A stretch of DNA of 64,000 bases from Incurvaria masculella (Eukaryota; Arthropoda; Insecta; Lepidoptera; Incurvariidae): contig OX335657.1 in NCBI GenBank assembly GCA_946894095.1, forward strand, positions 9,548,001-9,612,000, read 5' to 3'. A program made the position numbers and the translations under genes. How positions within the stretch are numbered: position 1 is the stretch's first letter; every line of letters begins with the position of its first letter. Under the pieces are notes generated by a model that was not told the origin of the DNA, did no database searches, and was given only the letters and a program-made list of their open reading frames with translations. This document shows, one piece after another, positions 31,101 through 58,872 of this stretch.

Positions 31101-32636
31101 AATAGATTTGTTTGTAAATTTAACCAAATCAACACTATGCGCATTGCCTGCTTTTTGAACACGTTGCATCCTCCTCATCACGGTGACTGGATTTTTCTTT
31201 GAACCAGAGATGGTGACAACACAATACCACGATTTCGTGCCGCGTCTGCCAATGAGTAGGTCCCATCGGGTAGAGCGCTCTTAAAATATATAATTACATT
31301 ATATTCTGAGAACAGTAACGCATGTGCTTCCATTAGATAACACAACTTACAATTTCTAATTTCGATTTCTAAACTACGTTTCCACGGGGAAGAATGCTTT
31401 CTGTCCGACCTTAATACCTTAATAACGAGGTTAGCATTTCAGTCTATATTAATTCCATTCATAAATTCCGTAGTATTTATTTACCTTCAGGGGGAGGTCA
31501 GTCAGTTGTCCAAAATGGCGACCAGATCCCACCGTTTTCACACAATAATCTGTTTATTATTTTGACATGTTTTGGGCATGACAAAAAATTTCATCCTTGT
31601 CAGATTGCCAGCTTTGACAGCAATAACTTACCTTAGAATTTACGTTATGTCACTAGTATTGCTCCAGTTAGCCCTAGCAGATTTTCGACATCTCTGTATC
31701 TTGCTCCGAAAATTTTTCAGTAGTCAATCCTTCTATAGTGGAACTTTGAAAAAACTATTTCACAGTCATAAGCAGCATCGACTCACATTGCAGGTGTATC
31801 ACAACGCAAAAGGCAGTGGCGGCAGTGGCACGACGTACCCGGCGCTGCTGCGCGCCGACGAGCAGTTCCTCGTGCCCGACCGCCTGCTCGTCGTGCTAGA
31901 TATGGACGAGGGCACTCTCGCCTTCTGCGCCGACGGACGCTACCTGGGCGTGGCGGCGCGCGGCCTGCGCGGCAAAACCCTCTACCCCATCGTGTCCGCC
32001 GTGTGGGGACACGCCGAGATCGCCATGAAGTACGTCGGCGGACTCGACCGTGAGTGTCTTACCTCTGTACGTTCTCGAAGAGCAGCTCCTCGTCGTACTA
32101 GACGTGGACGAGGGCACCCTCCCCTTCTGCGCCGACATACGTCGGCGGACTCGATTGTGTCTATCTCTGTACTTACTCGATGAGCATTTCATCGTCCCGG
32201 ACCACCTGCTCTTCGTGCTATATATGGACGAGGACAAGACCCTCTAATCCATTGTGCGGTGTGGGGACACGCCGTGATCGTCATGAAGTACGTTGGCAGA
32301 CTCGACCGTGAGTGTCCTTACTTGACGAGCATTTCCTCGTGTCCAATCGTCTGCTCGTCACTGCTAGACATTGACGAGGGCACCCTCGCCTTCTCCTTTG
32401 ACAGTAATAGGTAATATTTCCTTTGGCCACGGTGTGCACCATTAGAATGTGTAATATCGTATGATTGAGGCGAATTAACTGGTTGGTGTTGCGTTGCAGC
32501 GGAGCCGCTGCCCCTGATGGAGCTGTGCCGGCGCGTGATCCGGCAGCGCGTGGGCCGCACGCGGCTGCGCGCCGCCGCCTCGCGGCTCGCGCTCCCGCCC
32601 GCGCTCACCGCCTACCTGCTCTACCACGCGCCCTAA
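24944..32636 (+). CDS. gus: Gustavus / SPSB SPRY-SOCS box protein
   Basis: Orthologue of Drosophila Gustavus and vertebrate SPSB1/4. In that family the SPRY (B30.2) domain binds short peptide motifs such as the one in Vasa, and the SOCS box recruits Elongin B/C and Cullin-5 to make a ubiquitin ligase. The core protein starts at ATG 26600 or 26606 ([12 protein letters not shown]) and joins four exons (26600-26790, 29260-29521, 31794-32049, 32500-32636) into 281 aa, the usual family length. Visible landmarks are [68 protein letters not shown], the BC box [14 protein letters not shown] and the Cul5 box [11 protein letters not shown]. All junctions are GT-AG with matching phases. An upstream exon (24944-25167) stays in frame and would add 76 residues. 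Downstream lies a long gene-free 3' region with poly(A) signals. Confidence 0.95.
25174..25262. repeat. CCACA/CACAC microsatellite at exon 1 donor
   Basis: (CACCA)n then (CACACACCC)n begin within ten bases of the exon 1 splice donor in intron 1 of gustavus. Confidence 0.9.
25299..25680 (-). mobile_element. TA-flanked MITE, truncated, inverted copy
   Basis: Reverse-orientation copy of the family below: terminus AGGTGGCCCA next to TA at 25297, truncated at the other end, where it meets the full copy at 25681. Lies in gustavus intron 1. The sequence matches the reverse complement of 25843-26227 with only scattered differences. Confidence 0.85.
25684..26227 (+). mobile_element. TA-flanked MITE, full length (~544 bp)
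   Basis: Terminal inverted repeats AGGTGGCCCA and TGGGCCACCT flanked by TA on both sides, suggesting a Tc1/mariner-mobilised MITE. Other copies are at 31085-31290 (part), 40824-41367, 44890-45121 (right end), 47205-47632 (reverse) and 61935-62447. No transposase is encoded. Confidence 0.85.
26596..26790 (+). CDS. gus: gustavus exon 2 (core N-terminus)
   Basis: Acceptor TTTTTAACTTTTCAG ends at 26595 and donor GACGACAG|GTAAAC follows 26790. Contains the conserved start [14 protein letters not shown] and the segment LKHAWNPDD that leads into the SPRY domain. The coding start at 26600 or 26606 fits family N-termini (MGQK). Phase 2 out. Confidence 0.93.
27067..27546 (+). mobile_element. TTAA-flanked MITE, 480 bp, in gustavus intron 2
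   Basis: TTAA at both ends, with imperfect terminal inverted repeats (left TTAAGGCGCTAGGACTAGCC, right ending GGCTAGTAGCAGGCCCTTAA). A highly similar copy is at 37695-38173. TTAA flanks are typical of piggyBac-type target choice. Confidence 0.8.
27903..28240 (+). repeat. SINE body fragment and foldback-family fragment
   Basis: 27903-28020 matches the SINE body (CCATACCAGGACCATCC, CGACCATC). 28145-28175 contains CATGTTTCAAAAATGTTACGGC, shared with the 26-nt arms at 53826-53914. Both lie in gustavus intron 2. Confidence 0.6.
29260..29521 (+). CDS. gus: gustavus exon 3 (first half of SPRY)
   Basis: Acceptor CCCGTTTCAG ends at 29259; donor AACAAG|GTGAGC follows 29521. Codons [10 protein letters not shown] through [10 protein letters not shown], including the highly conserved [12 protein letters not shown] core. 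Strikingly GC-rich third positions compared with flanking introns. Confidence 0.95.
30227..31011 (+). repeat. ~790-bp dispersed repeat in gustavus intron 3
   Basis: Near-identical in order and orientation to 39679-40482. Shared words include GCATATGAAAAATTGTGGGA, GACCGATGCCTGTGAATTTG, TCGAAGCGCCAGCGGT and GGGCGCTGCTGTCGTTTTCA. A small deletion at about 30550 distinguishes this copy. Family not identified. Confidence 0.8.
31085..31290 (+). mobile_element. Diverged right end of the TA MITE
   Basis: Matches the right part of 25684-26227: AAATCAACACTATGCGCATTG, CATCCTCCTCATCACGGTG and the ACGATTTCGTGCCGCGTCT block. The terminus is eroded. Confidence 0.55.
31794..32049 (+). CDS. gus: gustavus exon 4 (second half of SPRY)
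   Basis: Acceptor CTCACATTGCAG ends at 31793; donor CTCGACC|GTGAGT follows 32049. Encodes [19 protein letters not shown] through [15 protein letters not shown]. The GSGGSG insert is a small lineage-specific linker. Decayed copies of the later part of this exon follow in intron 4. Confidence 0.95.
32077..32405 (+). pseudogene. Three decayed tandem copies of gustavus exon 4
   Basis: Intron 4 repeats fragments of exon 4 in order. Copy 1 (about 32077-32165) has GAGCAGCTCCTCGTC...GACGAGGGCACC then jumps to TACGTCGGCGGACTCGA. Copy 2 (about 32172-32315) has ATGGACGAGGACAAGACCCTC, TGGGGACACGCCG, ATGAAGTACGTTGGC and CTCGACCGTGAGTGTC, so it even includes the splice-donor region. Copy 3 (about 32320-32400) has GAGCATTTCCTCGTG and GACGAGGGCACCCTCGCCTTC. 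Internal deletions and stops make them non-coding. Confidence 0.85.
32500..32636 (+). CDS. gus: gustavus exon 5 (SOCS box)
   Basis: Acceptor GTTGCGTTGCAG ends at 32499; stop TAA at 32634-32636. Encodes [16 protein letters not shown] (Elongin C-binding BC box) and [16 protein letters not shown] (Cullin-5 box), the C-terminus typical of SPSB proteins. Confidence 0.95.
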
Positions 32637-35850: not shown

Positions 35851-36739
35851 TTTTTTCTCTAATAGAATATGTAATTAGGAATGAATAGTATAACACTTTT
35901 GATTATATAACCACCCATTTGTTTATTGTTTATTCATCATCCATGGCTATATACAAATGATAGTAGGGTTAGACTGCTAACGTCATACAATGTATAAAAC
36001 TCACTAAATACTTCTTATTGTCGCTGATACCATGACATTTTAACCAGCGCCATCTCCCGTCACTGCCAGAACTAGTCGTAACATTTTTAAACTAAGCTTA
36101 ATTCCAAATTTTGCCTAGGCAGGCATGATAAAAACGTTACAATTTAACTATAAAAATAATTAATGTCATTGTAAATAAAACATATTAATATTCATTGGTT
36201 TGTATTTAAAGTATTCTCAAATGTGAATTGCAATTTTTTTTATCCCTATTCAACACTCGTATGACGTTAGCAATCTTTTCCTACTTCCAATTATCTATGT
36301 CCATGGCAGCACACTGCACTCGGATTTGTCTCTTTTTATGAAGGCTGCGAGCCCTCATGCCTAGTTCTTACTGCTTCTATTCCATGAATGGATAAAAAAA
36401 TACCGAGTCTTTGGATGCGACGATTGCTTCCATTGATGGAAAGCTCCTTTCTATTCGATGTGCTGTTCCTTGCTTTATACATAAATTTGGTCAGTTCCGC
36501 CATGTTTTTCCACACTGCTAAGGGTGGTCAGCACACATGGTGCAAAATAAGCAGTCTGCAAACGAAACGTCGACTTCAACAGTCAGCGATAATTTGAATA
36601 CTGTTCATCCAAAAACATTTTAATAATGTATAGGGTGTTGTGGACCAGCTTACCCTAAATTGTGAAATAATCAGAGACTATGAGCCCTAAGCAGCTAGTG
36701 TTAATAATAAAAAAATGGGTTGTATGTTTGTAGAGCATA

Positions 36740-36745
36740 TTTATT
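36740..36745 (-). promoter_or_regulatory. Poly(A) signal of the FLYWCH gene
   Basis: AATAAA read on the minus strand, about 82 nt past the stop codon at 36827. Confidence 0.55.
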
Positions 36746-36826
36746 TAATCATTAAAATTAAATGTTTCTTATAAAAATACCTATACATTACACAGATTAA
36801 CCAAATCTCTTGCGCTCGCATTGAGA

Positions 36827-36862
36827 TTAGTTTGCTTTTCTCTTGGTGGCAAACTTGGTAGG
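36827..36862 (-). CDS. FLYWCH gene exon 12 (C-terminal tail)
   Basis: Acceptor ATTTCTTTCTTTACAG, then PTKFATKRKAN and TAA. AATAAA on the minus strand at 36745-36740 would end the transcript about 90 nt after the stop. Small exon, so the call rests on splice signals, phase 0 and the nearby poly(A) signal; further exons between 36863 and 38853 are possible. Confidence 0.65.
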   Translation of the reverse strand, partial: PTKFATKRKAN

Positions 36863-39800
36863 CTGTAAAGAAAGAAATCAAATGAGTATATTGTCTTGTG
36901 TGAACAGAAAAACATGCAACACGAGTAGCACTTTTATCACAGATCCTTCATTTGAGGAATTTTATATTTATAATGGGCATAGATGGCTAATACCACACCA
37001 CTGTTATGATATTAGCCGAATACACCTCATGGGAGCTGGGTCCCATACCAGACTCCTTATATTGCATAACTACATTAAACTGGATCGAAAACATGGACAA
37101 TTTTCATACTACCATCTCTAATCTCGTACTAAGTTTTAAAAAGTGCTGTTTGAATACGACTGCTACAGTTTTAAGTGGAATCTAAACCAGGAACGACTAA
37201 TCCCTTAGTTGCCTCTTGACATGCAGATGATTTTTTTTATGCAACCTGACATGGATGGCTAATACTACACACCTACCGTTATGATATTAGTCCCAGGACC
37301 TTCCCTTTATGAGCAAGGCTACATTGAACTGGATGGAAAACATGGACAATTCTTCATTGTCACTTTGACCATCTTTTCGTCCGCTGCGATGGTACCGGGC
37401 GGGCTTAAACCCTACCACCTAGTAGGGGAAGGGGACCTATAGTTTTACACGGATTCCGAACCATGGAGCAGCTCGCATTCGTGACGAAATGCACTTATCG
37501 AACTCAGAAAGATAAAGAAAGTGGTGCATGTCAGGGCGAGGAATTGAACCCAGACCTCTGGTATGCTAGGCCAGTCTTCGCGCCACTAGGCTACGAGCCG
37601 CTCGAAGCCTAGTGGAAGTGTAGTAGTCCTCTCTGCCTACCCTTTATAAAGGAAGTGGCATGATGTAAACATTTGGGAAACTATGAAGACTATTTTAAGG
37701 CGCTAGGACTAGCCAACTACTCGCGCCATACAAATGCACTTTTTAACAAATGTAATAATATGTAGTGAAACTCTTCAGCAAATCCAAATAGAACTCCAGA
37801 CTGATAATGGATTGTTAATATTTTTTTATTCCATCATTTATTTAAATAATAATAAAAATAAAAAAGTTGATTTTTCTCATTAGAAATCTGAAAGTAATTC
37901 GATTTCTAGATATAAGCAAAAACAGCATATATGCATAAACAAAAAATTCTATTTGCTTTTAGATTTCTACATTTAGTCAAAAAAGTTCGGAAATGGACAC
38001 CGTTTCCTCAATGTATTTTGTAAAGAAAAAGGAAACATACATTAACGAAAATAGGTCGATTCCTAGACAAGGAATCATATATTGTAAGAATGACACTTAT
38101 AATCGTCAGACTTAGTTAGTTAACTTGGGGTGCCTCGTCTAACTTTGCGATTTGGCTAGTACCAGGGCCTTAAGGTCGGCCCGTAAGCACCTGAAAATTT
38201 CGCCTCCCATACAAACGTAGTTTACTAATCATTTGAAAACCACTGTTCCAACTTACTTGATATTTGGTATCTAATATTAAGCTACAAATATCTGTGTCTG
38301 CATGCCTTTGTTTTTTCGGTAAATGTATTCTGGGTCAAACCACAGAGAAAACAGAATTCGTATAAAGATTTTCTTTTTGCTTTCATTTCATTCGGTTTGG
38401 ATTTTTTAAAAAAACAAAAGCATGCAGACACAGATATTTGTTACCTGATATTAGATATTAAATATCTATTTAATTGGAATAGCATTTTCCAAATGATTAG
38501 TAAACTACGTTTGTATGGGAAGCATGGCTTACGGGCCGTTCTTAAGGAATTGGTTTAACGAAGGGCACCTTAAAACAACAAAAACTATAAGCTGTACAGC
38601 TTGACATTTCCAATTGTATGGGGGAAAGTATAGTAAATTGGACCCCTCTCATAATCAAGAAAATAAGCTGTTACCCTAAACTGGCAACACATATTGATTT
38701 GAAGGAACATCACTGCGATACAAGCGAAACGCCAGTTGTCAAATAGCAAGCAAGGTGCGATGTTTGATGATGTATGTGATGGTGTGATGGGTTTGATGTT
38801 ATTGACTAATTTCTACACGAAAAAATGAAAGTTAATCGATTCAGTGAGGTTACCTCCGCACATATTATGTCCGGCGGGAGCATACTATCGTCGTTAGTGT
38901 TGGTGCCGGACCATGACTGGTTGCCGTCGTCCTGCAGCGTCACCTACACAGAGTACAAACACTGTCAAGCACATGTCTCTCTTAACGTACAGTTAAAGTA
39001 TGTGTAGGGGTCAATATAAAAATTCTCTTTAACCCTTTCCCCGCCAGCATGTCGATTCTCGACACTCTATTGACTTTACAATCAAGTCGATCGATTGCCA
39101 AATTTCAATCCAGTTGCGTTTTAATTTGGTATTCTTGAGTTCAACTGTGTTCGGATTTTGCGATCGAATAGCATGGCTATATATAAAGCAATCCTCAAAC
39201 CGGTCTGGACATACGGGATACAGCTCTGGGGAACTGCTGCAAAGACTAATATAGACATAGTGGAGAGATTCCAAACAAAAACAATTCGAAGAATATTCAA
39301 AATCCCATGGTACGTATCCAACAAACAAATTTATGAAGATCTAGATATCCCAACAGTTAGAGATGAAATACAGAAACATACAACAAGATACAAGGAACGT
39401 ATTGAAAACCATCCAAATAAAACTGCAAAGGATCTAATGGGATCGGCCAGCATACAATTCTCGAGACTGAAAAGACATAGTATACCCAGTCTACTGACAA
39501 GATTTAATTAACCTGCAAATGGAGCCACACGAAGAGGAAAGAGACTGCTGAGTCTCTCTCGGCCTATGATGAGGAAAAAAAAAAAACAGCATAAGGCATA
39601 CAAATGAGATGATTATTGCAGTCAACACTGCAGATGGCATCTGTACAGAACTAACAAAGAAGAAAAAAAAAAAAAATAGCATATGAAAAATTGTGGGATG
39701 GTTTACCTATCCGATAGAACGTGAGACCGATGCCTGTGAATTTGCTGCCTAACATTGTTTGATTACGCCCCGAAGCATACAATTATAATGATGTGAGTAC

Positions 39801-42800
39801 ATACATAAAATAACATTTATTAATATCAAATCTTTTTGTTTTGTTATTTTCATTGACATTGAGCATGCATTCAGTTAATAAGTAAGGTTTCAAAATAATA
39901 TTTAGCACGAGGCAGGTTGAGATAAACTGAACGTGAACACGTTTCTCAAACAAAAAAAAATCACTACAGTCGGGACGAGCCGATGCCTTCACCTTCGAAG
40001 CGCCAGCGGTGCGCACGCAGTAACCAAATCTGATCCAGTTTTGTTTCTGCGCAGCCGCTGGCGCCGCTTATAAAGGGAATTACTTAATTTGAAGTGAGGT
40101 TAAGAATTTTTTAGAGGTTTTGAATTTAAATCAATTGAAGTGAGGTTATGTTGTATGCAAAGACATTCACTTAGAGAAATATTGTTTTTGTTGAATTTAA
40201 AGTCATTAAATATTTTCCATAGGTGTTGTAACAGAGATGCTATTCAAATATCGCACATTGATTGCATACAACAATCCATCCGGCCTTAAAAAGTACCTCC
40301 TTTATAAACTGGAAAGAAATTGACTGTAACTCGATCCTAACCCAGTTCCAATCCAGCTGAATAACGTCGGGAATACCGATTCTGACGTTTCTCTATACAT
40401 TGTGATGACAGTTCGATCGCAAACTCGCTCGAAATTAATTCCGCTACTACTCGCTGGATCGAGGGCGCTGCTGTCGTTTTCAAGAATACCAAAGAACTGT
40501 CTGTCAACTTGCTAAGGATAGAGAAGTTCAATCGAGTGTCGGGAATCGCAATGCAGGAACGTATATATCCGTCAGAGCAAGGCATTCTGCAGGCGCCCCA
40601 GGTAGCGGGCGTCAATGACATAATGAGGCAGTCATAGGCCAGCCGCACATTCGATACAAATTCGTAAACATATGTTATTGGACGTGTGAACTGAGCAAGC
40701 AAACTGGATTTTCACCCCTAAAAGCTGTGTGTGACCACTGACAGTGTGACAAAAATTCGTTTAATTGTTTGGTCACCATGCGACCTAATCTGACTAAATA
40801 CTTTCGCTAAGCCATATCTCGTAAGGTGGCCCATCCCGCTCATCTCCCCATACAAAAGGGGAATGAAGATCACGCCCATATTTCTTGTCAGAGTTCCAAA
40901 ATATTGCTCAAAATAGCTTTATTTGATCGAACTCGATGTCTGATGACCATTGGCATTGTAAAATTGTGTTTGGTTTCTAAGTTATAAGGTCCGAAAGTTC
41001 GAATTTTTTGCACGTTTTATACAATAACTTTGGAGGTGGATTACGCAATGATAAAGTAAGAACATCTTAAAAGATTAGTCATCAGACATAGCTTATTTAA
41101 TCAAGATTTATAATCTATTTGGTTTTCTGTTAGATTTTTGACTACAGCGGTCGTGGTTTACTTTTAGCTATAAGTCGTTTTGAAATTAAAATTTTCGTAA
41201 ATCTTACCAAATCATACACTATGCACATTGTCTTTTTTGTGGACAAGTTTCATCTTCCTCGTCACGGAGCCTGTCTTATTTTTTGAAACAGAGAAGTTCC
41301 CAGAGCGCAACAGCACGGTTTTGTACCGTGCCCGCGAATGAGTTAGGCCCGCCGGGTTGGGCCACCTTAAGAGCGGATTAGTTTACATACAAACTAATGA
41401 ACTGAAAAAGTTGGTATTGATTTTGGATGTCGTTACTATATGTACGACATCAGAGGACCGATATAAATCGTGCTTATTCGCAAAAAATTTATAAGTACGA
41501 AACTGCATCCATAAAGAGGAGCGCCTCACTGCTTCTATTTCTAATATTTGCAAAAAAACACGAAACCACCGCTTGCACTGGCATACCTCTCACACCAGCA
41601 TATTTAGTCTGAATTATACCCGATTAACATTTGCAGTGTAATGCTGATTCCATCTTGCTCTAACTTTACCCGGTACAAATACAGTACCCAGCAGAAAATA
41701 ATACACATGGGACGTTAAAAGGTGACAATCGCCTAGTTTCGGCTTTGTAAAGGTTCATCTCTCTCACACGTAGTACACAGGTACTGAGTGACAGCATGTG
41801 ACAGCGACGAAGCCCTACAAAGCCAAAACCAGCAGATTGTTTCCTTTCCAATGTCCAATGTGCATTATTTACTGCCGCGTACTGTACAGCAGTTTGATTT
41901 CATCATGCAAGAGTAATTGGAACATATGTTAATGAACCGGCAGGATTAAGAATTCAGATGGATGGAACAGACAGACAGATGGAAAGTGAAATCAACGATA
42001 CCTGCATGGTCGGGTCATCCATCTGCATCCTTACGCTTTTTTGCCACTTCCGCATCGTGGGCTCCTGGAACACCAAGTTTTTGGCGCCTTCGGGGTACCT
42101 GCGGAGAACACAGCCAATGAAGGCATACCTGCGACTCGTCGTCGGCTAGCCCTTGGACGCCCTTCCTTTGCCACATTCGCAACGACGTCTCGATGTACGG
42201 AAGGTTTTGCGCGCCCAATGGGAATCTGCAAGGGCAAGGTGATGTGCCAACACATTTGTGAGTGGGGGGTGGTTTTAAAGGGGTAAGGGATGTCTTTTAG
42301 CAGTGCGAAATTCCGAATCCATCCCATTCCCCCCTATACTTTATAAATGTAATAATGTTTTGAATGGAGGTCGTCTTAAATTTTTATCAGACCAAGTAAC
42401 AAAAGGAGCTAATGATATTTTGTCAAATAATGTTGGCATGTTTGATGTATGGTAGTGTATGTATTTATAGAAAACATCCGACATCAAGGGTTCTACTACT
42501 AGGGTACTACGTGCTAAAAGAACTTTGAATGTTGCTGGTGGTGGTTTCGTTGAAGCTAAATAGAAGGTGTGGATTGTATTTGTAAATATATTTTGCTGCT
42601 GCTTGTGTTCTTTAAGAATTTAAATTAAAATAATTTGGGAACACTTCAACCCATTTTTACTGGATGGTGGCCTAAATCACACACCTCGGCATACTCAGAC
42701 AAGCTGTCATCGTCAAAAAGTCACGTCAAAGGATATACTAGGCAAAAACGTGAAACAGACTCACTTTTTTAAGCCCTTGGTCCGCATTAAATAGACAAAC

Positions 42801-45800
42801 TGTAAAAATAAAACAACCAGAGCCCTCTGTTAGCAACCCAATACATTATTTCACAGACTGAGAATCTGAGACTCTGATGCCATGCTAAGAGTAATTTTTA
42901 ATGCTAATAATATGGTACAGAGGCGAAGGTGTAAAAATAATTTGTTCTACAAACATAAGTTGAAAATTGAAAATATACTTTTGTTATGCTTCCAATTTTT
43001 CTAATCAACTCACTACTACTAAACTAAAATTATAAATTTGGACCATCGCTATTACTCCGGTATCTCTAGCTAGAAGTATCGGACAGTAAGAAATACCGGA
43101 GTATTAGCGATGGTATAAATATTTATCACTAAGGCAGTATACTTCTACACCCTTACTAATAAACCATTTTAATTCCACTGCTTTACCTCGGAATAGCCAG
43201 TCTTTACGATGGTAAAAGCCAAAATGTGTATAATTACTAACAAATCCAGAATAGGGAAGGAATAATTAAACCTACGTTATACCAACAAGTTTGCTCACTG
43301 GCGTATACTTGCATGACAATCGACTTCGAACCATTGGAATACCGGCGCCTAAAACGTGGTTCCTGGATTTGATTGTCAAGACAAATGTCATTTTAGTCAC
43401 ATTAAATTTGCTCAAACACCCAATTTAGCGTTCTTGCTTACGCTCAGAGCTTTTTTGTATAGAGTTAAAGACTTTTTGAACACAAACTGAGCAGTTCGAG
43501 TAATTTGTTGTTTGGTTTAATTACGCCAATTTTCTCTTTTTCCGTCGCTATACTAGGGTCCAACCTAGAGTAAAGGCGAATATAAGTAAATAATATATTC
43601 CATTGCTTAGCAGAGGATCAGTTTAAATAACCATTATTAGTAGTACTTCTGTGACAGCTTGGAATAACTAAGGAATTGCGATGGTGTAAACGTTTATTGG
43701 TAAGGCTAGTGTCATAACCCTTATTTGTGTCAATGCATTGATGCAACACACGGAGTTTGTGATGTGCGTGTCATGAGGTACCTGTAGGCCTCTTCATCGT
43801 AGATGATGCGTATGGGCGTTGTCTCCGTCATGCACCGACGTCGCAGCACGTTGTACATCTCGTTCCTGCACAAAACAAAAGTCAATAGCACCATTTGTGC
43901 ATGGGGGACCAGTGAGGGAATATTTTTCTTTCCTCTTGCACAAATATTCGCAAAAAAGCAAAAACGAACCGACTAGTGACATGGATGAGTTTTTCTGTGG
44001 ATGTTATTTTCACGGATGGCTCACGCCTACTTTAATTTAGTGGGCCCAACACAGCTAATGAGAACTAAGTTTTTTTATGCGACCTGACATGGATGGCTAA
44101 TACCTCACTACTACCGTTATGATATCAGCGCAATACACCACATTCCCGGAGGAATTAGGTGCCATGCCAGGACCTTTCCTTTATGAGCACGGCTACATTG
44201 AACTGGATGGAAAACACGGACAATTTTTCATTGCCGCTTCGACCATCTTTTGATCCAAAGCGATGGTACCAACCCGGGCGGGCTTAAACCCTACCACCTA
44301 GTAGGGGAAGGGGACCTACAGTTTTACATGGATTCCGAACATGGAGCAGCTTGCATTCGGGACGAAACGTGTCATGCCAGGACCATCTTTAAATTGCTCG
44401 GCTACATTGAACAGAATGGATGGTGACTTTTGATGATTTTCGCCCCTAAGCACACCCTCATCAAAGTAACAGTGAGTTTGAATGTGCATAGCACCTCTCC
44501 TTGAGCCACTCGTAGGGCGGGTGCGAGTGAACGCCCTGCGAGGCCACCGAGCCGATGACTGGTACCCGCACCTCCGCCCAGCATCCGTCAACCCAACACT
44601 TCAGCACCTGTAACAGCACACACGGTTCAGCAGTACATCGTAAACTCACACCTGGAGAAATCTTGTTCAATGTCCTGTAAAGCAAAAACTATGATATATT
44701 TACTTTTCTGTACTAAGCAGGTACGTCGCTTATTCCAAGGAATGTGACATATATGTATGTATAATCGAACGTGAAGCAAGCATACATTAATTGAAGAAAG
44801 AGAACAGTAAAAACTTAACGAATATACTGCAAGAATGGACTCGAACCAGCAAAACATACCATTCGCGGGTATTGCGTCTACCAATTTCGCCTACGGCTGT
44901 CATTTGCTGTTTGTCTTTTAGCTATAACACGTTTTGCAATAAAAATGTTCGTAAATCCTACCAAATCAAACTATGCACATTGTCTGTTTTGTGGACATGT
45001 TGCATCTCCTCATCACGGAGCCTGTCTTGCCTTTCAAACAGAGAAGGTCCCAGAGCGCAATAGCACGGTTTTGTACATGCCCGCGAATGAATTAGTCCTA
45101 TCGGGAAGGGCCACCTTAAGGTGAAGGTATATTTCGTTTACGTTTAACCTCCATAACAGAAATTCCACAGTCATCGCCACTCGATAATGTTGCATGTATA
45201 TAATTAATTTTTATTGTTACCTGCACGCCAGCCCGCGTGACGCCAGTCTGGTGGTAGGTGTAGCCGCGCCACTCGTACCAGAGTGAGCCCTTCTTGTATG
45301 GCGCGATCAGCGTTGGCTGCACAATCACAAATTGTTGTGTGTACGGGCAAATTGTACATACATACTTATAGGTAGAAAACTTAGGGTCTCTTCCACCAAG
45401 AACTGATATGCTTAATCTTCGCAAAAAATACCAGTACAAGATAATCAGCACTTTAGTAATAAAGGTCCTTTAAGTGTCGATTAAAGAAAATCAGCACTTG
45501 GTGTAATCCTGCCTTAGTGATCAACGCCGTGACGAACTTTTTAGTTTTGGATAGAGTACTGTAAGCTCAACATAATTTTTGTTTACTTTAGCTTTATAAA
45601 ACTTGCTTGCACCCTATATATATGTATTATATATATACTTCATATATTGTAGTAACTGTGGATGTTTCTGTGAATATGCTTATCACAGACACATCCTTAT
45701 TATGATTATATAATGTATTCTTAACAAGGTTATTTCTATAAGGGTCCCTTGCATCCACTTTCCTCTTGGGATGAGCCCACACAATATTTCACTTCGCGGT

Positions 45801-48800
45801 GACATAACGGTAATGACGTATTCTATTAAATACATAAAATTATCAAGTTAAATCCGGGCTGACTCCTAGTGTCCGATACCAAAATCGACTTTGGTGACGA
45901 CAGCATTAAGATTGATATCTCAATTATTGCAGACAAAATGCTTTTTTTACCGAAAAATACAGATATTTACAAAAAAAACATACGGACATAGAATGAAGCT
46001 TTATCAAGTGATAAAGAACATTTGATGAAAACCTGACAACTTTTCGGGGTAGGGAAAAGTTAGGACCTGGAAGATGATTTCGCTAGTTTAATGGCAGTCG
46101 CCGTGCAAATTTGTGACAAAGAATGCATTTCCTAAAATTTTCAAATATTAGATTACCTATGACTTCACGACAGCCTTAACAACGGTATTCCCAGAGAAAT
46201 AAGATAACAAAGGGGCATCAAATGCGTACAGCGTCACGCGGCTGCAGCTCGTGCACGTGCGCGTCCTTGTAGTGACGCTTGATCTCGGCGCTGCTGGTGG
46301 CCGTCTCCGGGCACAGCTCGCACGCGTACGCCGCCTTCTTCTTGTCCTTGTGGCACTCCACGTGCTTCTTGGCCAGCGCCAGGTTGTTGAACGGTCTGCG
46401 ATCGCAGAGCATGTTAGTCTGTGTGATCGATTAGCTAGGTTTTAACCACAGACTCAATAGATACTGCATATCAGAGGACCGTCTCGGATTTTTTTTTTTT
46501 ATATATCTAACATCTAAATTATATAAATATATAATCTAAATCTGTGAACAATATGGCGGGTGACCTCAAGCCTTGCAATGGGGAGGACGGCTGCCAAACT
46601 TTACCACCAGATGGCGCCACATAAAACTATGCAACGGTTTGTTTTCAAAGTTATGGGTTGTTAGCCAATTAAACTGAGTTAATATGAATAGCTACCTTGA
46701 AATGGATGTATAGCCTCTATGTGATAGCTTGGCATAGTTTTATGTGGTGCCATCTGGTGGTAAAGCTTTGCGCCTTGCACCCCATTGGTTGCATGCTGAA
46801 GAGAAAGGAAGGAAAAGTGGCATGAGGTATATGTTTCGTGTCTCCGCCGTATGGTCAAAATGTAAATTGTATGGTAATCCGGTGTCATTATATGGTAATC
46901 GGGTGTGTTCAGTACGTCTGTGACTATGATTGCATGTGGCATGTACGTTTGAGTTGGGTTGGTAGTTTTAGAAAATTGGAGACAGCGGGTCTCATAGTAA
47001 GAGTGCTAGATGGCATATCTCCTTCCTTTTTATCAATGGTTTTAACATATGGAATGGATTAGCTTTTCAGAAATAGCCAGTAGAGGAGACCTGTATTGTA
47101 AATTGTCTAGTTTTTTTATCTCAGAATCGTGGAAAGATTTCGGCAAGTCTCTAAGCATCAAGATGCTGAATTTAGTCTAAAATCTTATAACTGAGCAGGA
47201 TGAGCAGGATGCAACATGTCCATAAAGCAATGGGCAAAGTGTTTGATTTGGTTAGATTTACGAAAATTTTAATTTCAAAGCGACTTATAGCTAAAAGTAA
47301 ACCACGACCACTGCAGTAAAAAATCTAACAAAAACCAAATTGATTATAATTTTTCATGAAACAAGCTATGTCTGATGACTAATGTATTTAAGATGTTTTT
47401 GTTTTATCGTTGAGTAATCCACATCCAAAGTTATTGTATAAAACGCGCGAAAAATTTGAACTTTTGGACCTCATAACTTGGAAACAAAACGTAATTTTAC
47501 AATGCCAACGGTCATCAGTTATCTAGTTTGATTAAATAAAGCTATTTTGAGTAAAATTTAGGATCTCTGACAAGAAATATGGCCATGATCTTCTTTCCCC
47601 TTTTGTATGGGGAGTTGAGCGGACCTTAACTACAAAACAAGAAGTTGTAAATTTCATAATATACAGATGGATAACCAGAACCCGGTGACACGGCACGGTG
47701 TCCTCCCTTTTGCACACATCAATCCGCACTCTCGATACGACTCAGAACTTCCGTGCAGGTGTAACATATGCCTGAGTTCCAATACCACCAAGTAATAGAT
47801 TGAACAAAAACTTTGATACCCAAGTTAAAAAATGTCTATAATCTAAGGGCTAAAACAGGCTCACAATCCACATAATTTGTCTCATATCGGGTAAGCATGA
47901 AGAGTACCAACTTGTTGCAGTAAACGCAAGAGTAAGGCATGCTGTGTCTCTCCTGCACATGCTCGTTGAGCTCTTCCTCGGACTGGAACACTCGGTGGCA
48001 GTACACGCACGTGTGCGTCTGTCCGCGATGCGCCACCTCTAGGTGCAAACGCAGCGAGTGCTGCCCTTTGAACACCTTGAAGCAGAGCGGACACTCGGTG
48101 CTGCCGTACGGCACTTCTGTAATAATGTAATGACTTTAAAAAACAGTGTTGAGTGACGTCACAACCAAATAGTACTAACTATACCCACTTGATTCTCTAC
48201 GATTAAACATAATATGATGCTAACTGCACAGCTGATATGTGTTAATGTCAGTGACTTCCAGCAGATTTTTTTTGGTATTTCAGATTCAAAGCCGAGAAAA
48301 TACTCTATATTGTAATGCAATCCCGCGTATGGTTAGCATTGCAATTAAAATCGGATTTGTCGACTGGCAACTTAGTATTAGCACCAACTGTAGATTGCAT
48401 GCAAAATTTAAACGTCGAAAACTGACTTGGAGCGTCAACAGAAAGACAAATATACACTCAACAAAGTTACTGATACTGAGACAGCATTCATTTACACTCA
48501 CTAGGTCGGAGTTTATTTCGATCCTGTTTCTGCTTGCTGGCATCGGTCTCCCACAGATTGGATATTTTCACGACGCGCCGTCGGTACAGTTGTCCGTTTT
48601 TATCCAAGTACTGGTCCTCTGATATCGTCTCCACCTCCTCACCTGCCATCACAATGTACAAGAGGGGTTAAAGGTATTCTTCTGCCTTCATGGGACATGT
48701 TTACAGAGAAACCTTGATAGCTCTTTTTATTGCACCAAAAAGTAAGCACAAAATAAAAACTAACATAAACACAAAACCAAATAGTCGTACTTTAGCTTTC

Positions 48801-51800
48801 GATTCCTAGATAAAAATTTGCTTACAAAAAGAAAGATTAGGAAGGTATTTCAATTTTTAGGGTTCCGTAGCCAAAAGGTGCCAACGGAACCCTATTACTA
48901 AGCCTCCGCTGTCCGTCCGTCCATCCGTCTGTCACAGGGCTGTATCTCATAAACCGTAATAGGTAGGCAGCTGAAATCTTCACAGAGTGTGTATTTATAA
49001 CAACAAATAGGTAAAATTAATAAATAATAAAATTAAAGGCCCCACAAAAAAGGTTTTTTTGTGTTAAATCTTGTATGATGGTACGGAACCATTCGTGTGC
49101 GAGTCCGACTTGCACTTGGCCGGCTCGTCACAATGACTGCAGCGGGGCGGAGTACAAGCTGTGTACTCCGCCCCGCTGCAGCCACAGTCGCGTTGCACAG
49201 TAATTTTGTGGTTCGTTTCGCCATAGACAGTCGGCTCCCAGCATGCTGTCGAAATTGGCAGTAAAAATATTTCTGTCTGTGGCGGGCCCAAAAGGTGGTT
49301 GGTCAATTACTTACCTTGGTCAGTGGTGGCATTATTTGTGGTGGTTTCAGCTTCATTGTCACTGTCCTCAGCAAACTGTGGGTCAGTCTGAAAAATAATT
49401 TGTTAGTAATATGGGTTCAGTGTGAAAATTTGTATTTAACCACATTTTTTAAACAATAAAATTCGATGAGTACCATCTTTTATTTTGGGTTTTAAAGAAT
49501 CAAACGCCTTAAGAATATGCTGAATGTTTCTTCCCGTGAATTTTAAGTCGCAAATACCATGCCCTACCTTGAATAGTTTCAACCAGCCCGTACTAGCTTT
49601 ACAATCAGATTAATGACACTGAATTGCCTTTTCTCATAGACAGACCGGGATAGATAGGGTTTGAGAAGCACATGAAAACCGAAATGATTTTTTTTTTCTC
49701 AGAAATATATAATTTCATGATCATATGCTTACATTAAGTTTGCAACATTTAGCGGGGCCCGGAAGATTTTAAAATGTATTAAAAAATATATATCTGCTAA
49801 ACAAATATTTAGAAACGGTATTAAAAAAAAATATATGTTAAGTCTTTTAAGGCGTAACGTAACTGTGAATTTGCATCAATTCTGTAATTAGGGAAATGTA
49901 TTTAAAAAATATTTTTACTAAAAAAAATCTATGCTTGCTATTGCTATATTTCTTTCTAGAATATGTAAAAGAAAATTTAATTCTTTAAACACTATACAAC
50001 GAACGATTTTAAATACGTATTTCGAATTTTTTGTTTAGCTTTTGTGTGAATGTAAAAATTATAAATGAAAAAAAAATGTTTTTCTAATATTTGCAACATT
50101 TTACAAATTTCACAGAATATAGAGTTTGCGGTTAGTTTCCAATTTTAGAAAATAAAATAGAATTTTCATTATTTGCTTTGCAGATATTATGAAAATAGTA
50201 CAAAAAAAATATATTTACACAGTTCCGTAAATAAGAAATTGTTGCAAATTCACAGTAATATTACACCTAAAATTAGCTAACATATAACATTTCTAAATAT
50301 TTGTTTAGGAGATATCATTTTTTAAACATATTTCAAATTTTATTTCTATCTTCCGAACCCCCCAAAATGTTGCAAACTTAATGTACACACGTCCACATGA
50401 AATACTACGTTTATGAGAAAAAAAACTGCATTTTGGATTTCATGTTTTTCTAAGTGCTGATTTAAGGCTAAAGTTCCTGGAGTAAGAATTGGACCTCCTG
50501 ATCTGATCTTTTTTGTGTAAACCACCTAATAACGGCGTCCGCTAGATTATTGCAGCCAATTTCATGATTTTACGATCCATTTACCCAAGAGTCCAATCAA
50601 GTTTTGATTATAAACGTATTTTTTTGTTTCTTAGTATCACTGTCGTTGGATAACTTGGTTATAGATTTGCCATCTTCTAACATTCTAGGTCTCATATAAA
50701 AAGAACCACACGTTTACGTTTAGGAGTTTTACACACATGAGCAGAGAGTTAACTACTTTAGGCGTGAATGTATTTTATTACTTAGCAGTCGTGCAGCACT
50801 TTTGCGGGATTAAAAATTGACTCTGCACATCGGATGATTCTGACCAATGCGACAGGAGTGAAGGATAGAGCGGTGCGGCGAGTGTTCGCTACCGTGGATT
50901 GCGAAAAGTGATGATGCGGAAACCGGTGGAGAATTCTCGATGCGACACGTCGCTAGCTCAGTTTTTAAGATGTTCGAAAAACAGATGTTCAGATTACCGA
51001 TGTTCAGATAATTGGCACTACTGTAACAGAATGATAAATTCCTTACCAATTCACTTTTAACATGATCTGTATTTATAGAAGAGGGTTTTGCAACATTCAG
51101 TTCTTCCTTTACTGATTCAGCATTATCTGAAAAAATATGTTTATTCTCTGTCAAGTGATACAACAATGAACAAATAACCTTAATTAATACCTTAAATAAT
51201 GTTTTGGTAGGTAATAGTCACGCGTACGGATAGCACCAAATGACCAGTGTTATGTTGTTGTTGTATTAATTGCTAAACGATATGTGGCAGCCCACGGCAG
51301 CCCACTCTGACGCGCACTTGCATGGCTAGCGCGCGCATTAATTGTGCAACTCGGTATCTTTCGTTGCTTTAGAAGTGTGATTGTTCAATTTGAATTTATA
51401 GTAAGGGTTGTCAGTAAATTGGAATTGAAAAACTACCTTTTTAAATGGTTACGAAACAAAAAAAAGCAAAAATGCATGTTTCTAGGGTGTTTAGTGGGTT
51501 AAGTAAATATACTTTTTCATACTAAGCAGGCACGTCGCTTATTCCAAGGAGTGAGTTATGTTTGTTTTATATAATCGACCGTGAAGCAAGGACACATTAC
51601 TTGAAGAAAGAGCCCAGTAAAAAGAACTACTTTAATAATATACTGCAAGGCTGGACCCGAACCCGCAAAACATACCATCCGCGGGTATTGTGTCTACCAA
51701 TTTCGCCACCGGCTGTACACCCATAATTTGGAATTCTCTTACAGTCCCTCCTTCCGTAATGAACGCCTCCTAATAACAGTGTTTATGATTATACTTTCAT

Positions 51801-52228
51801 ACATTTATTTAACGCTTCATCTCGTTATGAGGGCAATATGTTTGAATGTTCAATCTTTGCAGTCAAAGTCCGCAAGTTAAAGAACCTTCCCTGGACCATA
51901 TGGAGGAGATATTATTCATGATGTTTTATGACTATTTAAAAATTCAGCGTTTTGTATTCTAGTTGGACCGTAACAACGCATGAATTGTGCCCCAATGATT
52001 AGCCGCGTGGGATAGATACCAGCAACACAAATCTTTAAAATAAAAACCTGAGTTTTTTGAGACTTTGAAGCAGCCGCCGCGTTCCAAGTGCTTGATCATA
52101 ACCATCAGGTTGTCGAAACGAATGTTGCACAGGGGACACTTCAAGCGTTGGTAGGCAGAGGTCAAGTGAGTCGCAAGCTCCACCGTATCCTGGAACTCCT
52201 GACCGCAGCAAAGCGGACACGGTATCAT
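36827..52228 (-). CDS. C2H2 and FLYWCH zinc-finger protein, 12 exons
   Basis: I assembled one 453-aa reading frame from twelve GT-AG exons whose phases all agree. The start ATG is at 52228-52226 with an in-frame TAA upstream; the stop is at 36829-36827. In order: a degenerate finger (CPLC, residues 4-26, second His replaced by Tyr), a C2HC finger (31-53), an acidic linker (about 60-158), four C2H2 fingers at about 167-273, a FLYWCH finger at about 292-345 (LWYEWRGYTYH, then CWVDGC and HSH), a segment NEMYNVLRRRCMTETTPIRI with IYDEEAYR, one of two alternative 32-residue exons, an Asp/Asn-rich segment, and a basic tail PTKFATKRKAN. Multiple zinc fingers suggest a nuclear DNA-binding protein; no specific function is claimed. 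The FLYWCH-plus-IYDEE layout recalls FLYWCH/MULE-type transposon proteins, but no transposase domain is present. It could alternatively be two genes split at a TGA after exon 6. Confidence 0.8.
36975..37605 (-). repeat. Two SINE copies, one with tRNA-like head
   Basis: 36975-37120 is a body fragment. 37225-37605 is longer and ends with GAATTGAACCCAGACCTC and CGCGCCACTAGGCTACGAGC. On the minus strand this reads TAGCCTAGTGGCGCG and GGGTTCAATTCC, good A- and B-box matches. Both lie in the last intron of the FLYWCH gene. Confidence 0.75.
37695..38173 (+). mobile_element. TTAA-flanked MITE, second copy
   Basis: Nearly identical to 27067-27546, with the same TTAAGGCGCTAGGACTAGCC start and a GGCTAGTACCAGGGCCTTAA end. 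Its right TTAA is also the left TTAA of the next element. Confidence 0.8.
38170..38545. mobile_element. TTAA-flanked palindromic MITE
   Basis: Terminal inverted repeats around GGCCCGTAAGC and GCTTACGGGCC. The interior is also inverted: AATATCTGTGTCTGCATGC on the left and GCATGCAGACACAGATATT on the right. It shares TTAA at 38170 with the MITE on its left. Confidence 0.8.
38854..38943 (-). CDS. FLYWCH gene exon 11
   Basis: Acceptor TTTGTACTCTGTGTAG and donor GCGGAG|GTAACC, phase 0 both ends, 30 codons. Reads VTLQDDGNQSWSGTNTNDDS then MLPPDIICAE. Confidence 0.75.
39158..39520 (+). mobile_element. Jockey-like LINE ORF2 C-terminal fragment
   Basis: 117 codons ending TAA at 39509, with the familiar end of Jockey-type reverse transcriptases: IYKAILKPVWTYGIQLWG, then VERFQTKTIRRI, PWYVSNKQIYEDL, IPTVRDEI. 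5' truncated, followed by A-rich tracts at 39572 and 39661. Sits in an intron of the FLYWCH gene on the opposite strand. Not functional. Confidence 0.85.
39679..40482 (+). repeat. ~800-bp dispersed repeat, second copy
   Basis: Partner of 30227-31011. Starts directly after the A-rich tail of the Jockey fragment. Contains CGCGCAGCCGCTGGCGCC and GGATCGAGGGCGCTGCTGTC. A minus-strand frame at 40337-40702 runs through its right end but shows no family features. Confidence 0.75.
40824..41367 (+). mobile_element. TA-flanked MITE, full length
   Basis: AGGTGGCCCA at 40824 preceded by TA; TGGGCCACCT ends at 41367 followed by TA. About 544 bp, same length as the gustavus intron 1 copy. Lies in the FLYWCH gene intron. 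Confidence 0.85.
42002..42098 (-). CDS. FLYWCH gene exon 10B (alternative)
   Basis: 97 nt. Acceptor TGTGTTCTCCGCAG and donor ACCATGCAG|GTATCG; phase 2 in, 0 out. Begins YPEGAKNLVFQEPTMRKWQ. Only 30 nt (42099-42128) separate it from exon 10A. Read after 10A, its frame shifts and hits TGA. Confidence 0.8.
42129..42225 (-). CDS. FLYWCH gene exon 10A (alternative)
   Basis: 97 nt. Acceptor CACCTTGCCCTTGCAG and donor GAGTCGCAG|GTATGC; phase 2 in, 0 out. Begins FPLGAQNLPYIETSLRMWQ. Homologous to exon 10B at 11 of 32 residues plus conservative changes. Confidence 0.8.
43042..43114. repeat. Small foldback element
   Basis: ACCATCGCTATTACTCCGGT at the left and ACCGGAGTATTAGCGATGGT at the right form inverted arms with one mismatch. 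In an intron of the FLYWCH gene. Confidence 0.75.
43782..43865 (-). CDS. FLYWCH gene exon 9
   Basis: Acceptor GTTTTGTGCAG and donor GCCTACAG|GTACCT, phase 2 in and 2 out. Reads NEMYNVLRRRCMTETTPIRI then IYDEEAYR. This is the common upstream partner for the two alternative exons. Confidence 0.8.
44070..44420 (+). repeat. SINE body with a second partial copy
   Basis: 44070-44345 carries GCGACCTGACATGGATGGCT through GATTCCGAACATGGAGCAGC. 44370-44420 restarts with GTGTCATGCCAGGACCATC and CGGCTACATTGAACAGAATGG. Confidence 0.7.
44495..44607 (-). CDS. FLYWCH gene exon 8 (second half of FLYWCH)
   Basis: Acceptor TGTGCTGTTACAG and donor GAGAG|GTGCTA, phase 0 in, 2 out. Holds the metal ligands: KCWVDGCWAEV (C-x4-C) and GVHSHPP (H-x-H). 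Confidence 0.85.
44697..44905 (-). repeat. SINE with tRNA-Leu-like head
   Basis: On the minus strand: GGCGAAATTGGTAGACGCAA (A-box region), then TTTTGCTGGTTCGAGTCC (B box). On the plus strand the tail starts with TACTTTTCTGTACTAAGCAGG. Other copies: 51504-51725 and 62475-62695. Confidence 0.75.
44906..45121 (+). mobile_element. Right end of a TA MITE copy
   Basis: Matches the right ~230 bp of the 544-bp element, ending GGGCCACCTTAAGG. Inserted next to the SINE, so one likely landed in the other. Confidence 0.7.
45221..45316 (-). CDS. FLYWCH gene exon 7 (first half of FLYWCH)
   Basis: Acceptor TTTGTGATTGTGCAG and donor GTGCAG|GTAACA, phase 0 both ends, 32 codons. Reads PTLIAPYKKGSLWYEWRGYT then YHQTG, the aromatic first part of a FLYWCH finger. 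Confidence 0.8.
46230..46395 (-). CDS. FLYWCH gene exon 6 (C2H2 fingers)
   Basis: Acceptor CTCTGCGATCGCAG. Completes finger CVYCNKPF...HVECH across the junction and encodes CELCPETA...HYKDAH. A phase-0 donor GCT|GTACGC follows 46230. If not used, the frame reads four residues to TGA at 46220-46218, giving a shorter C2H2-only protein. Confidence 0.8.
46560..46795. repeat. Foldback element
   Basis: Arms contain TTACCACCAGATGGCGCCAC with ATAAAACTATGC on the left, and GCATAGTTTTATGTGG with TGCCATCTGGTGGTAAAG on the right, around a ~90-nt loop. In an intron of the FLYWCH gene. Confidence 0.75.
47205..47632 (-). mobile_element. TA MITE copy, reverse orientation, diverged
   Basis: Matches the reverse complement of the 544-bp element: GATGCAACATGTCCATAAAG at the left and CCCTTTTGTATGGGGAG at the right. 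Termini are eroded. Confidence 0.7.
47912..48116 (-). CDS. FLYWCH gene exon 5 (C2H2 fingers)
   Basis: Acceptor TTACATTATTACAG. Encodes fingers CPLCFKVF...HLEVAH and CVYCHRVF...HVQERH and the start of a third, CVYCNK. The donor that keeps this third finger intact is AACAA|GTTGGT, a poor +3 to +6 match; phase 2 out. Confidence 0.85.
48502..48642 (-). CDS. FLYWCH gene exon 4
   Basis: Acceptor TGTGATGGCAG and donor CGACCTA|GTGAGT. Reads EEVETISEDQYLDKNG then basic YRRRVVKISNLW; phase 1 in, 1 out. Confidence 0.75.
48854..49123 (+). mobile_element. Helitron-like non-autonomous element
   Basis: Starts TTTTTAGGGTTCCGTAGCC, has GTCCGTCCGTCCATCCGTC, and ends TGTGCGAGTCCGACTTGCAC then TTGGCCGG. Lies in an intron of the FLYWCH gene, opposite strand. 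Confidence 0.8.
49137..49181. repeat. Perfect 20-bp GC-rich hairpin
   Basis: Arms 49137-49156 and 49162-49181 are exact reverse complements (CTGCAGCGGGGCGGAGTACA) with a 5-nt loop AGCTG. It begins 14 nt after the Helitron-like element ends. Confidence 0.9.
49315..49387 (-). CDS. FLYWCH gene exon 3
   Basis: Acceptor AATTATTTTTCAG and donor ACCAAG|GTAAGT. Acidic/Thr-rich TDPQFAEDSDNEAETTT; phase 0 in, 1 out. Confidence 0.75.
49731..50384. mobile_element. ~650-bp foldback element
   Basis: Outer ends ACATTAAGTTTGCAACATTT and its inverted partner AAATGTTGCAAACTTAATGT; matching inner blocks include CTAAACAAATATTTAGAAA and ACTGTGAATTTGCA. AT-rich, no coding. In an intron of the FLYWCH gene. Confidence 0.8.
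51047..51126 (-). CDS. FLYWCH gene exon 2
   Basis: Acceptor CATATTTTTTCAG and donor GAATTG|GTAAGG. Reads NAESVKEELNVAKPSS then INTDHVKSEL; phase 1 in, 0 out. Contains a VKEEL motif resembling a SUMO-acceptor consensus. Confidence 0.75.
51504..51725 (-). repeat. SINE with tRNA-Leu-like head
   Basis: The clearest copy: on the minus strand GGCGAAATTGGTAGACACAA, ATACCCGCGGATGGTATG, TTTTGCGGGTTCGGGTCC. The A/B-box spacing and the extra arm between them resemble a class II (Leu/Ser-type) tRNA. Confidence 0.75.
52048..52228 (-). CDS. FLYWCH gene exon 1
   Basis: ATG at 52228-52226, MIPCPLCCGQEF. Donor AACTCAG|GTTTTT (weak after +2) follows 52048; phase 1 out. Contains the degenerate first finger and the C2HC finger. 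Confidence 0.8.
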
Positions 52229-52577
52229 TTTCACAACTTATTACCAAACCAAAACAACTGGAAGATTGAGGTTATTGATTACAGCTGTCACAAAATTTGA
52301 AGCCCGCCGCTGGCAGCGAACTGGAGATGGACGCAGTTGGCTTCACACAACTTCACGGCACCCGCAAAATGGCCGCTCACTCGAAATTTCCAAAATCCTG
52401 CATCACAATTTCCCCGCAATGAAAATGCGGTTGCTCGGTGTTGCCATATATTATATGTTCTGTGGTTGCCATTGGGAATGGACCATTCTCCATCATAAAA
52501 TAATGTGGAGGTAGGTCAATGAGGTAGGTAGAATTTATACACACTTTTTCAACATAGCAATGTCAATTACAGTTACC
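52229..52577 (-). promoter_or_regulatory. Probable promoter and 5' UTR of the FLYWCH gene
   Basis: Upstream of the ATG at 52228. No TATA box at a convincing distance is seen; placement rests only on position. Confidence 0.3.
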
Positions 52578-57743: not shown

Positions 57744-58618
57744 ATTTTTTTTTATGGTACTTTCATCTTGCTCATAGAAATATTATTTCTTTCTTGATAT
57801 GGCATCCCAGGTGGATTTTGTTAGGATTCCTGGGGCATTTTCCCCGCATGCTACTCGTAAATTCGCTCAACTTTTGCCCTTTGCAATAGCACAACAGCGC
57901 GATTTTCACGCCAGAATCACTGGGGGTTACCATGGTATATTAACTCGCCGGGTGGGTTACTTCTCTTCCTCTGTTCTCTTAATTAGCTATTGCAATAGGC
58001 GTATTTTGATAAAAAGATAAAAACAGCTGTACAGGCAATAGGGATCAACACTGAGGGCAACCACGCGTGAAATGTTCGCTACTCGAGAACAAGGCGTTAG
58101 TGTTTTTTTTTAGTTTTACTTAAAGTGAACGGCATTCTAAGAAAATCTGAATATGTATGTCTTCCGCAGAACCCTGCAATCGAAAGCCTTACAGCACATA
58201 AAAGGATAATTACTTCATCCAGCTATACTCTCAGATTGGAGGGTTTGTCTGGGGAACAGTTTTGGCGAACGCGTTTCGGAAGGAAATACGCGGGCGGTGG
58301 CGATGTTTGTACTGCGTGGCATACGATTATGTGTCCAATTTGTTCCTAACGGTGGAGTAGCGAGCTACGACCAAATTCAATTTATCTTTCCTTTTCTCTT
58401 TTGTGGCTACACTGAACCAATCTTCAGCATATAGGATGTGCCATAGGAGTGCAAGGTGTTGTGGCCTCATACCTTAAATGAAAGTAGTGTTCATTATCTG
58501 GTCGTCATAGATATTTCCCTTTCGTTTTGTGCCTTAATATCTTAAAGGTACAACAGCGCCTTGTGCGAAACGACTGCATGTCATCCAAAACATCTTTGAT
58601 TTTTCCAACCCCATTCAG

Positions 58619-58872
58619 GGTTTGACACAATGTCTTTGATTCCAGTGGTTTTATTGGCTTGTGCGATCGTGTCTTCCTTCACTGGTGCTGACGAGCATCC
58701 AGGTTACGATGCCCCGTGCCCCTGCCCTCGGGTCTACTGGCCACTGTGTGCTACCGACGGGAGAACGTACAATAACGACTGCATGTTCGAGTGCAAGAAC
58801 CAACTTCTCCTCTCCAAACGGCGGCCCAGTCTGGATGTCGTCCACAGGGGGCGCTGCGATGGCCTACCTTGA
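58619..58872 (+). CDS. Kazal-type serine protease inhibitor 1
   Basis: Single-domain secreted inhibitor. From ATG 58630 it reads 80 aa: signal peptide MSLIPVVLLACAIVSSFTGA, then one Kazal domain with six Cys (CPC, PLCATDGRTYNNDC, MFEC and the final RC). Kazal domains insert a loop into serine proteases; the position two after the second Cys, normally P1, is Arg here, which would suit a trypsin-like target (inference from the family). An acceptor CCCCATTCAG precedes 58619, and the frame is open back to it, so the start may be the leader exon at 56704 (89 aa total) or ATG 58630. AATAAA at about 59043. Tandem paralogue follows. Confidence 0.85.

Follow-up and report, generated by a model that had tools for sequence, protein, structure and literature searches.

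Exons 17.1 and 17.2 of Drosophila Dscam are said to exclude one another by steric hindrance acting together with RNA structure, a result attributed to Yue and dated 2013. Among 629 human mutually exclusive clusters, according to the available portion of PMC5740500, a donor-to-branch distance below 50 nt is seen in 57 (9%), and the lengths in 377 (60%) are not divisible by three. The same portion makes it plain that a short donor-to-branch distance and a frame lock are already known as a logic of exclusion. The steric threshold for that distance is quoted as ~50 nt for human OGDH in an extract of PMC7969005. Our full-text literature search found no report of such an exon pair in a FLYWCH gene. 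Here, we describe exons 10A and 10B of a predicted zinc-finger gene. With a probability of about 0.83, judged from the sequence, they are diverged copies of one exon, and each messenger would carry one and only one of them. The original prediction had also called them mutually exclusive, and that reading is supported by the homology of the two copies, their equal length and phase, the 30-nt gap between them, the frame lock and the profile of a paralog family.

The gene lies on the minus strand of the window, by which we mean the whole 64,000-nt stretch of DNA analyzed (C17:9,548,001-9,612,000); genome searches covered the 552-Mb assembly of 31 contigs. The model was drawn up by visual inspection of stop codons, splice sites and frame and is a prediction in its entirety. 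It has 12 exons and runs for 453 codons to a TAA with either version of exon 10. Its features, in window coordinates with splice junctions marked by a slash, are as follows.

52048..52228, minus strand, predicted exon 1, with the start codon and C2H2-like fingers
51047..51126, minus strand, predicted exon 2
49315..49387, minus strand, predicted exon 3
48502..48642, minus strand, predicted exon 4
47912..48116, minus strand, predicted exon 5, C2H2 fingers
46230..46395, minus strand, predicted exon 6, C2H2 fingers
45221..45316, minus strand, predicted exon 7, first half of a diverged FLYWCH-like finger
44495..44607, minus strand, predicted exon 8, second half of the diverged FLYWCH-like finger (C-x4-C-x17-HxH), linked to the family by its paralogs and negative in Pfam here
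43782..43865, minus strand, predicted exon 9, shared exon upstream of the pair, donor CAG/GTACCT, with paralogs on C2
42129..42225, minus strand, predicted exon 10A, 97 nt, phase 2 in and phase 0 out; FPLGAQNLPYIETSLRMWQRKGVQGLADDESQ; rank 2 against the paralog exon-10 profile among the 2,164 ORFs of the window, E 7.4e-5
42099..42128, minus strand, 30-nt gap between 10A and 10B, holding the 10A donor, the 10B acceptor and a TTCAT (A at +11) that is the one yTnAy among the 70 nt preceding 10B; putative function
42002..42098, minus strand, predicted exon 10B, 97 nt, phase 2 in and phase 0 out; YPEGAKNLVFQEPTMRKWQKSVRMQMDDPTMQ; rank 1 against the paralog exon-10 profile among the 2,164 ORFs of the window, E 1.6e-8
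42015..42017, minus strand, TGA met on inclusion of both exons or retention of the 30 nt
41947..42033, minus strand, candidate hairpin at the 10B donor, the 3' end of 10B pairing with the adjoining downstream intron; z -2.76
38854..38943, minus strand, predicted exon 11, shared exon downstream of the pair, with a TGA at its start if 10A and 10B are both skipped
36827..36862, minus strand, predicted exon 12, last coding exon, with the TAA

Pfam finds zf-C2H2 fingers in the predicted protein (E 1e-11) and no BTB domain in the 453-aa model, so that the BTB-FLYWCH combination of the mod(mdg4) type is absent from it. The donor of exon 9 matches the consensus at 7/9 positions, and there are weak donors at exons 6 (4/9), 8 (5/9) and 5 (6/9). 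Because some splice sites are weak, single exon boundaries may be off. The window also holds two exons of a SPRY-domain gene (29240-29602 and 31566-32183, plus strand) past the 3' end of the zinc-finger gene, and two Kazal-type inhibitor genes or exons (58600-58872 and 60545-60811, plus strand; E 6.4e-12 and 1.4e-9). Two minus-strand ORFs 2.5 kb apart (16958-17206 and 19496-19744) have an identical 82-aa translation and therefore reflect either a direct duplication of recent date or a repeat in the assembly. A tRNA search of the window found none.

The lengths of exactly 97 nt, the 30-nt gap and the passage from phase 2 to phase 0 that had been predicted for both copies are all exact. Both acceptors read CAG/ and the donors read CAG/GTATGC (10A) and CAG/GTATCG (10B). 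The latter is a weak point, matching the donor consensus at 6/9 positions, against 7/9 for 10A. Among the 936 GT dinucleotides of the region, 15.8% reach at least 6/9 and 3.4% at least 7/9. Ahead of the acceptors, 11 of 14 positions are pyrimidines for 10A and 10 of 14 for 10B, and the codon split ahead of each version encodes Arg (AG/A or AG/G). The exons have a GC content of 0.59 and 0.56, against 0.36 and 0.39 in the flanking introns.

The homology of the two copies was borne out. Their proteins are identical at 11 of 32 positions and positive at 18 of 32, the paralog family profile makes both of them versions of one exon, and the ungapped BLOSUM62 score of 55 was reached by none of 200,000 shuffles. 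At the nucleotide level, 49 of 97 positions are identical. The next-best similarity among 77 open AG-97-GT windows (both strands, the pair included) scores -1 against 10A and -7 against 10B. We also ran a search for duplicate exons modeled on the recipe in the accessible part of PMC3228551 (length within 20 aa, GT-AG, same frame, BLOSUM62, 15% relative score). Exon 10 was the sole position with a duplicate above the 15% rule (0.325 and 0.316) among the 10 internal exon positions searched. The introns adjoining the other nine contain no duplicates, with best scores that are negative, and in the two introns flanking the pair, the only segment above the rule apart from 10A and 10B themselves is an extended readout of 10B (0.16). 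The pair thus has the similar length, the matching splice sites and frame, and the homology of at least 15% that define mutually exclusive tandem-duplicated exons. According to that part of PMC3228551, the features of such pairs are present in 0.56% of neighboring non-exclusive Drosophila exons (90 of 16,180).

The reading frame constrains how the two copies can be used. As had been claimed, joint inclusion of 10A and 10B leads to a TGA near the end of 10B (42017-42015), and retention of the 30 nt stops at the same TGA, 103 nt before the last junction in either case. If both copies are skipped, exon 11 opens with a TGA that precedes the last junction by 86 nt. The predicted frame is therefore open with exactly one copy of exon 10 and closed with none or with both, and "exactly one" goes beyond the "at most one" of the original prediction. 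A length that is not a multiple of three, with an early stop on joint use, is the pattern expected of exclusion by frame and decay. Since the frame is open only with exactly one copy, the gene would make two alternative protein forms.

The second constraint lies in the gap itself. The other 11 introns of the predicted gene measure 385-3,058 nt, against 30 nt between 10A and 10B, a length that had been declared too short for a spliceosome. It is indeed below 34 nt, the shortest intron listed for silkworm full-length cDNAs in the available text of PMC3755909, and Drosophila introns of 40-50 nt are termed ultra-short and spliced more slowly (PMC5762160, in extract). The limit is not absolute, however: in the beetle Dscam1 exon-6 cluster, an excerpt of PMC8042237 gives more than 45% of introns as shorter than 50 bp, again between exclusive exons. 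A yTnAy motif occurs just once in the 70 nt upstream of 10B, as TTCAT; its A falls at +11 from the 10A donor, below the ~50-nt threshold quoted for OGDH, and 20 nt before 10B. This motif is a weak guide because it is absent from the 70 nt upstream of 2 of the 12 acceptors of the predicted gene. The branch point of 10B may conceivably lie inside exon 10A; splicing from 10A to 10B would then have none.

From the 30-nt gap, the predicted branch A at +11 and the short-intron literature, we infer a competition of U1 and U2 for one stretch. U1 bound at the 10A donor would leave no room for U2 at the predicted 10B branch site, and vice versa, and this clash would block splicing of 10A to 10B. Any leaky message with both copies skipped or both included would end early and would likely be destroyed. 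An overlap of donor and branch site, joined to the frame lock, is the likely mechanism of exclusion as far as these predicted elements go. A further reading is possible, and we offer it tentatively. The 30-nt element, made up of donor, branch site and acceptor, may act as a one-step contest of U1 and U2 (A at +11) over a shorter distance than the 25-41 nt of OGDH; within its FLYWCH-module family, only this gene may have made the exon after the finger a two-way switch.

The family in question is found mostly on contig C2. The part of the gene from exon 7 to exon 10 matches an array at 2.946-3.030 Mb of C2 and one unit at 8.602 Mb. The array (C2:2,946,000-3,030,200) contains 11 equivalents of exon 9 and 12 of exon 10 on both strands, and it represents either tandem genes or alternative 3' modules. 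The C2H2 exons of the window gene have no good match in it (tblastn, best E 0.2). In a genome-wide search with a query of consensus exons 9 and 10 (E up to 10, 24 of 24 candidates scored), C17 carried two exon-10 equivalents and all others lay on C2. The acceptor is an AG in the matching phase for all 13 exon-10 equivalents read on C2, and each offers one or more candidate GT donors in phase 0. A family profile made from these 13, with 10A and 10B left out, was run against the 2,164 six-frame ORFs of the window; 10B came first (E 1.6e-8) and 10A second (E 7.4e-5), with the third at E 2.6. Six residues are invariant in the 13 paralog exons (P2, G4, A5, M15, W18 and R19); 10B keeps five of them (R19 changed) and 10A four (M15 and R19 changed).

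The conserved exon after the finger is single in nearly all of the paralog units read. In unit U2 on C2, two exon-10-like exons are separated by 1.6 kb that contain no exon 9, and the second looks damaged. That copy, U2b, is missing four residues and looks like a remnant of another unit, and we did not count it as a second switch. Elsewhere on C2, a single open frame (C2:26382898-26383185) combines a FLYWCH-like finger with an exon-9-like linker (32% over query positions 8-99, E 4.6e-6) and is possibly a processed or ancestral relative. A protein set of 5.8 billion, seemingly without insects, gave no relatives of the whole protein at E 1e-3 (2,447 candidates) and none of residues 282-415 at E 1 (71 candidates). 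The pattern was unmatched in viral contigs, and 16 stretches of prokaryote contigs yielded none that was confirmed; these collections, too, seem to lack insects.

We then have to consider when the pair arose. 10A and 10B share N7, which none of the 12 paralog exons that have a residue at this position carries, and Q19, which none of the 13 carries. The best donor picks in the 13 paralogs give lengths of 67-118 nt, none of them 97, and a poor GT in U12 would give 97. Since N7, Q19 and the 97-nt length are common to both copies, they suggest that the duplication arose in the window gene. The duplication could instead predate the C2 array, with the other members having lost one copy each. The best tree of 20 residues agrees with this older date, in that it joins 10A with U7 (support 68) and 10B with U3 (support 72), but a clade of 10A and 10B is not rejected (AU p 0.159), and the shared residues and length stand against the older date. 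We regard the older date as rather unlikely.

It is improbable that the exon choice is set by competing docking and selector RNA structures and not by the short gap. Such structures are relied on by the Dscam1 clusters, according to the excerpt of PMC8042237, and there are some local signs of pairing here. The hairpin at the 10B donor (41947..42033), which was chosen after its repeat was seen, has a z of -2.76, and none of 200 shuffles folds as well. Inverted repeats of 14-18 nt at 78-86% identity link the two flanking introns in 6 of the 23 cases found, and exact 9-mer pairings within 400 nt of the pair are slightly raised (4 against 1, a count reached by 8 of 200 shuffles). Over the whole flanking introns, however, pairing does not exceed chance, with 28 exact 9-mers (longest 11 nt) where shuffles average 33, and the local 311-nt fold is ordinary (z 0.54). 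The strongest hairpin nearby (41715-41850, z -9.41) was rejected as a splicing regulator because the 207 bp surrounding it are a palindromic repeat present at at least 40 places in the genome.

That 200-bp palindromic repeat (41680-41886) sits ~115 nt past the 10B donor. It has at least 39 further places in the genome at 80-86% identity, counted from the 40 of 461 candidates that were scored, its own copy included, and it is likely a MITE. In the region 36500-52500, all eight Rfam matches at E up to 1 fall below the gathering score.

Another account holds that only 10B works and that 10A, silenced not long ago, is now either skipped or included as splicing noise. 10B is indeed nearer to the family consensus, keeping E3, K6, M15 and K20 and scoring 43.1 on the family matrix against 32.4 for 10A; 11 members score 51.7-67.7, on a matrix built from those same members. 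Yet 10A has no stop, four of the six family-invariant positions, and the stronger donor and the more pyrimidine-rich acceptor of the two. A long period of neutrality is rejected by simulated decay. When either copy was decayed neutrally in silico to 49/97 identity, the family score of the other was reached in 0 of 5,000 trials each way. In an earlier simulation of 16,000 copies, the pair score alone survived in 4, and none retained it along with the frame and the splice sites. With milder decay, the 10A score was still attained by 31 of 2,000 neutral copies at 78/97 identity and by 0 of 2,000 at either 68/97 or 60/97. Because neutral decay never kept the family score of the other copy, both copies were under protein constraint; as the simulation shows, they kept the family protein pattern while diverging to 49/97 nucleotide identity. 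The recent death of one copy would pass this decay test, and we take that version of events as highly improbable. That double inclusion or skipping serves as a deliberate off switch, working through a truncated and unstable message, is hardly credible: both outcomes do lead to a TGA, 103 or 86 nt ahead of the last junction, but a switch of that kind needs no two diverged and constrained coding versions, and the 30-nt gap disfavors double inclusion.

Under exclusive use of 10A or 10B, what would change is the segment right after the finger. The original prediction named this a FLYWCH gene, which Pfam does not bear out here and which is justified by way of one of the four paralogs tested. FLYWCH (PF04500) is absent from the Pfam results for exons 7-8, where 0 families were found, and from those for the whole protein at E 1. 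No FLYWCH match falls on C17 among the 150 scored of 616 genome candidates. Of the four paralog joins of exons 7 and 8, one passes the FLYWCH cut-off of 23.6 bits, at 24.2, and the others are below it (15.2, 20.4 and 15.6). The finger is therefore, narrowly, a diverged FLYWCH by family link. The segment after it may resemble the linker of FLYWCH-MULE transposase proteins. A comparison of exons 7-9 to solved structures gave one match (E 0.21), which we took as chance. The choice of exon would alter this segment and might tune binding to nucleic acid or protein. 10A has 3 K/R and 4 D/E, and 10B has 5 K/R and 4 D/E; since the K/R counts differ, the switch may, speculatively, tune the charge near the finger. 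A separate and very large array of FLYWCH exons lies at 3.92-5.20 Mb of contig C13, spanning ~1.3 Mb on both strands. All but one of the matches listed among the 150 scored of 616 candidates fall on C13, a minimum for the array, which is likely a mod(mdg4)-type locus.

If the exclusive reading is true, the locus is a compact natural model of exclusive splicing, in which one 30-nt element and a 97-nt frame rule suffice. At the protein level, the target would be the conserved exon after the FLYWCH-like finger; because it is doubled here and single in nearly all of the paralog units that were read, one can test directly how the two versions affect binding. Dscam 17.1/17.2 and 10A/10B are alike in being an insect pair of two exons, in a steric block, which is predicted for 10A/10B, and in a possible local hairpin, and they differ in the kind of protein. 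Both features of the human clusters can be read in the sequence of 10A/10B, the short distance by way of a predicted branch point; the human set was validated by junction reads, according to the available portion of PMC5740500, whereas 10A/10B is predicted from sequence. The extract of PMC7969005 describes vertebrate OGDH exons 4a and 4b as two exclusive exons whose branch point lies so close to the upstream donor (25-41 nt in human) that the two sites cannot both be used, an arrangement like the one predicted for 10A/10B. Their branch points are distant from the acceptor and were mapped by experiment, whereas that of 10B is predicted, at +11 and 20 nt from 10B in a gap of 30 nt. Finally, mod(mdg4) of flies and moths, as covered in the accessible part of PMC4667647, likewise has a FLYWCH-type finger from a region with parts that vary among isoforms. 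It varies 3' modules behind a BTB domain, many of them by trans-splicing, whereas the window gene would vary one internal exon behind a C2H2 start.
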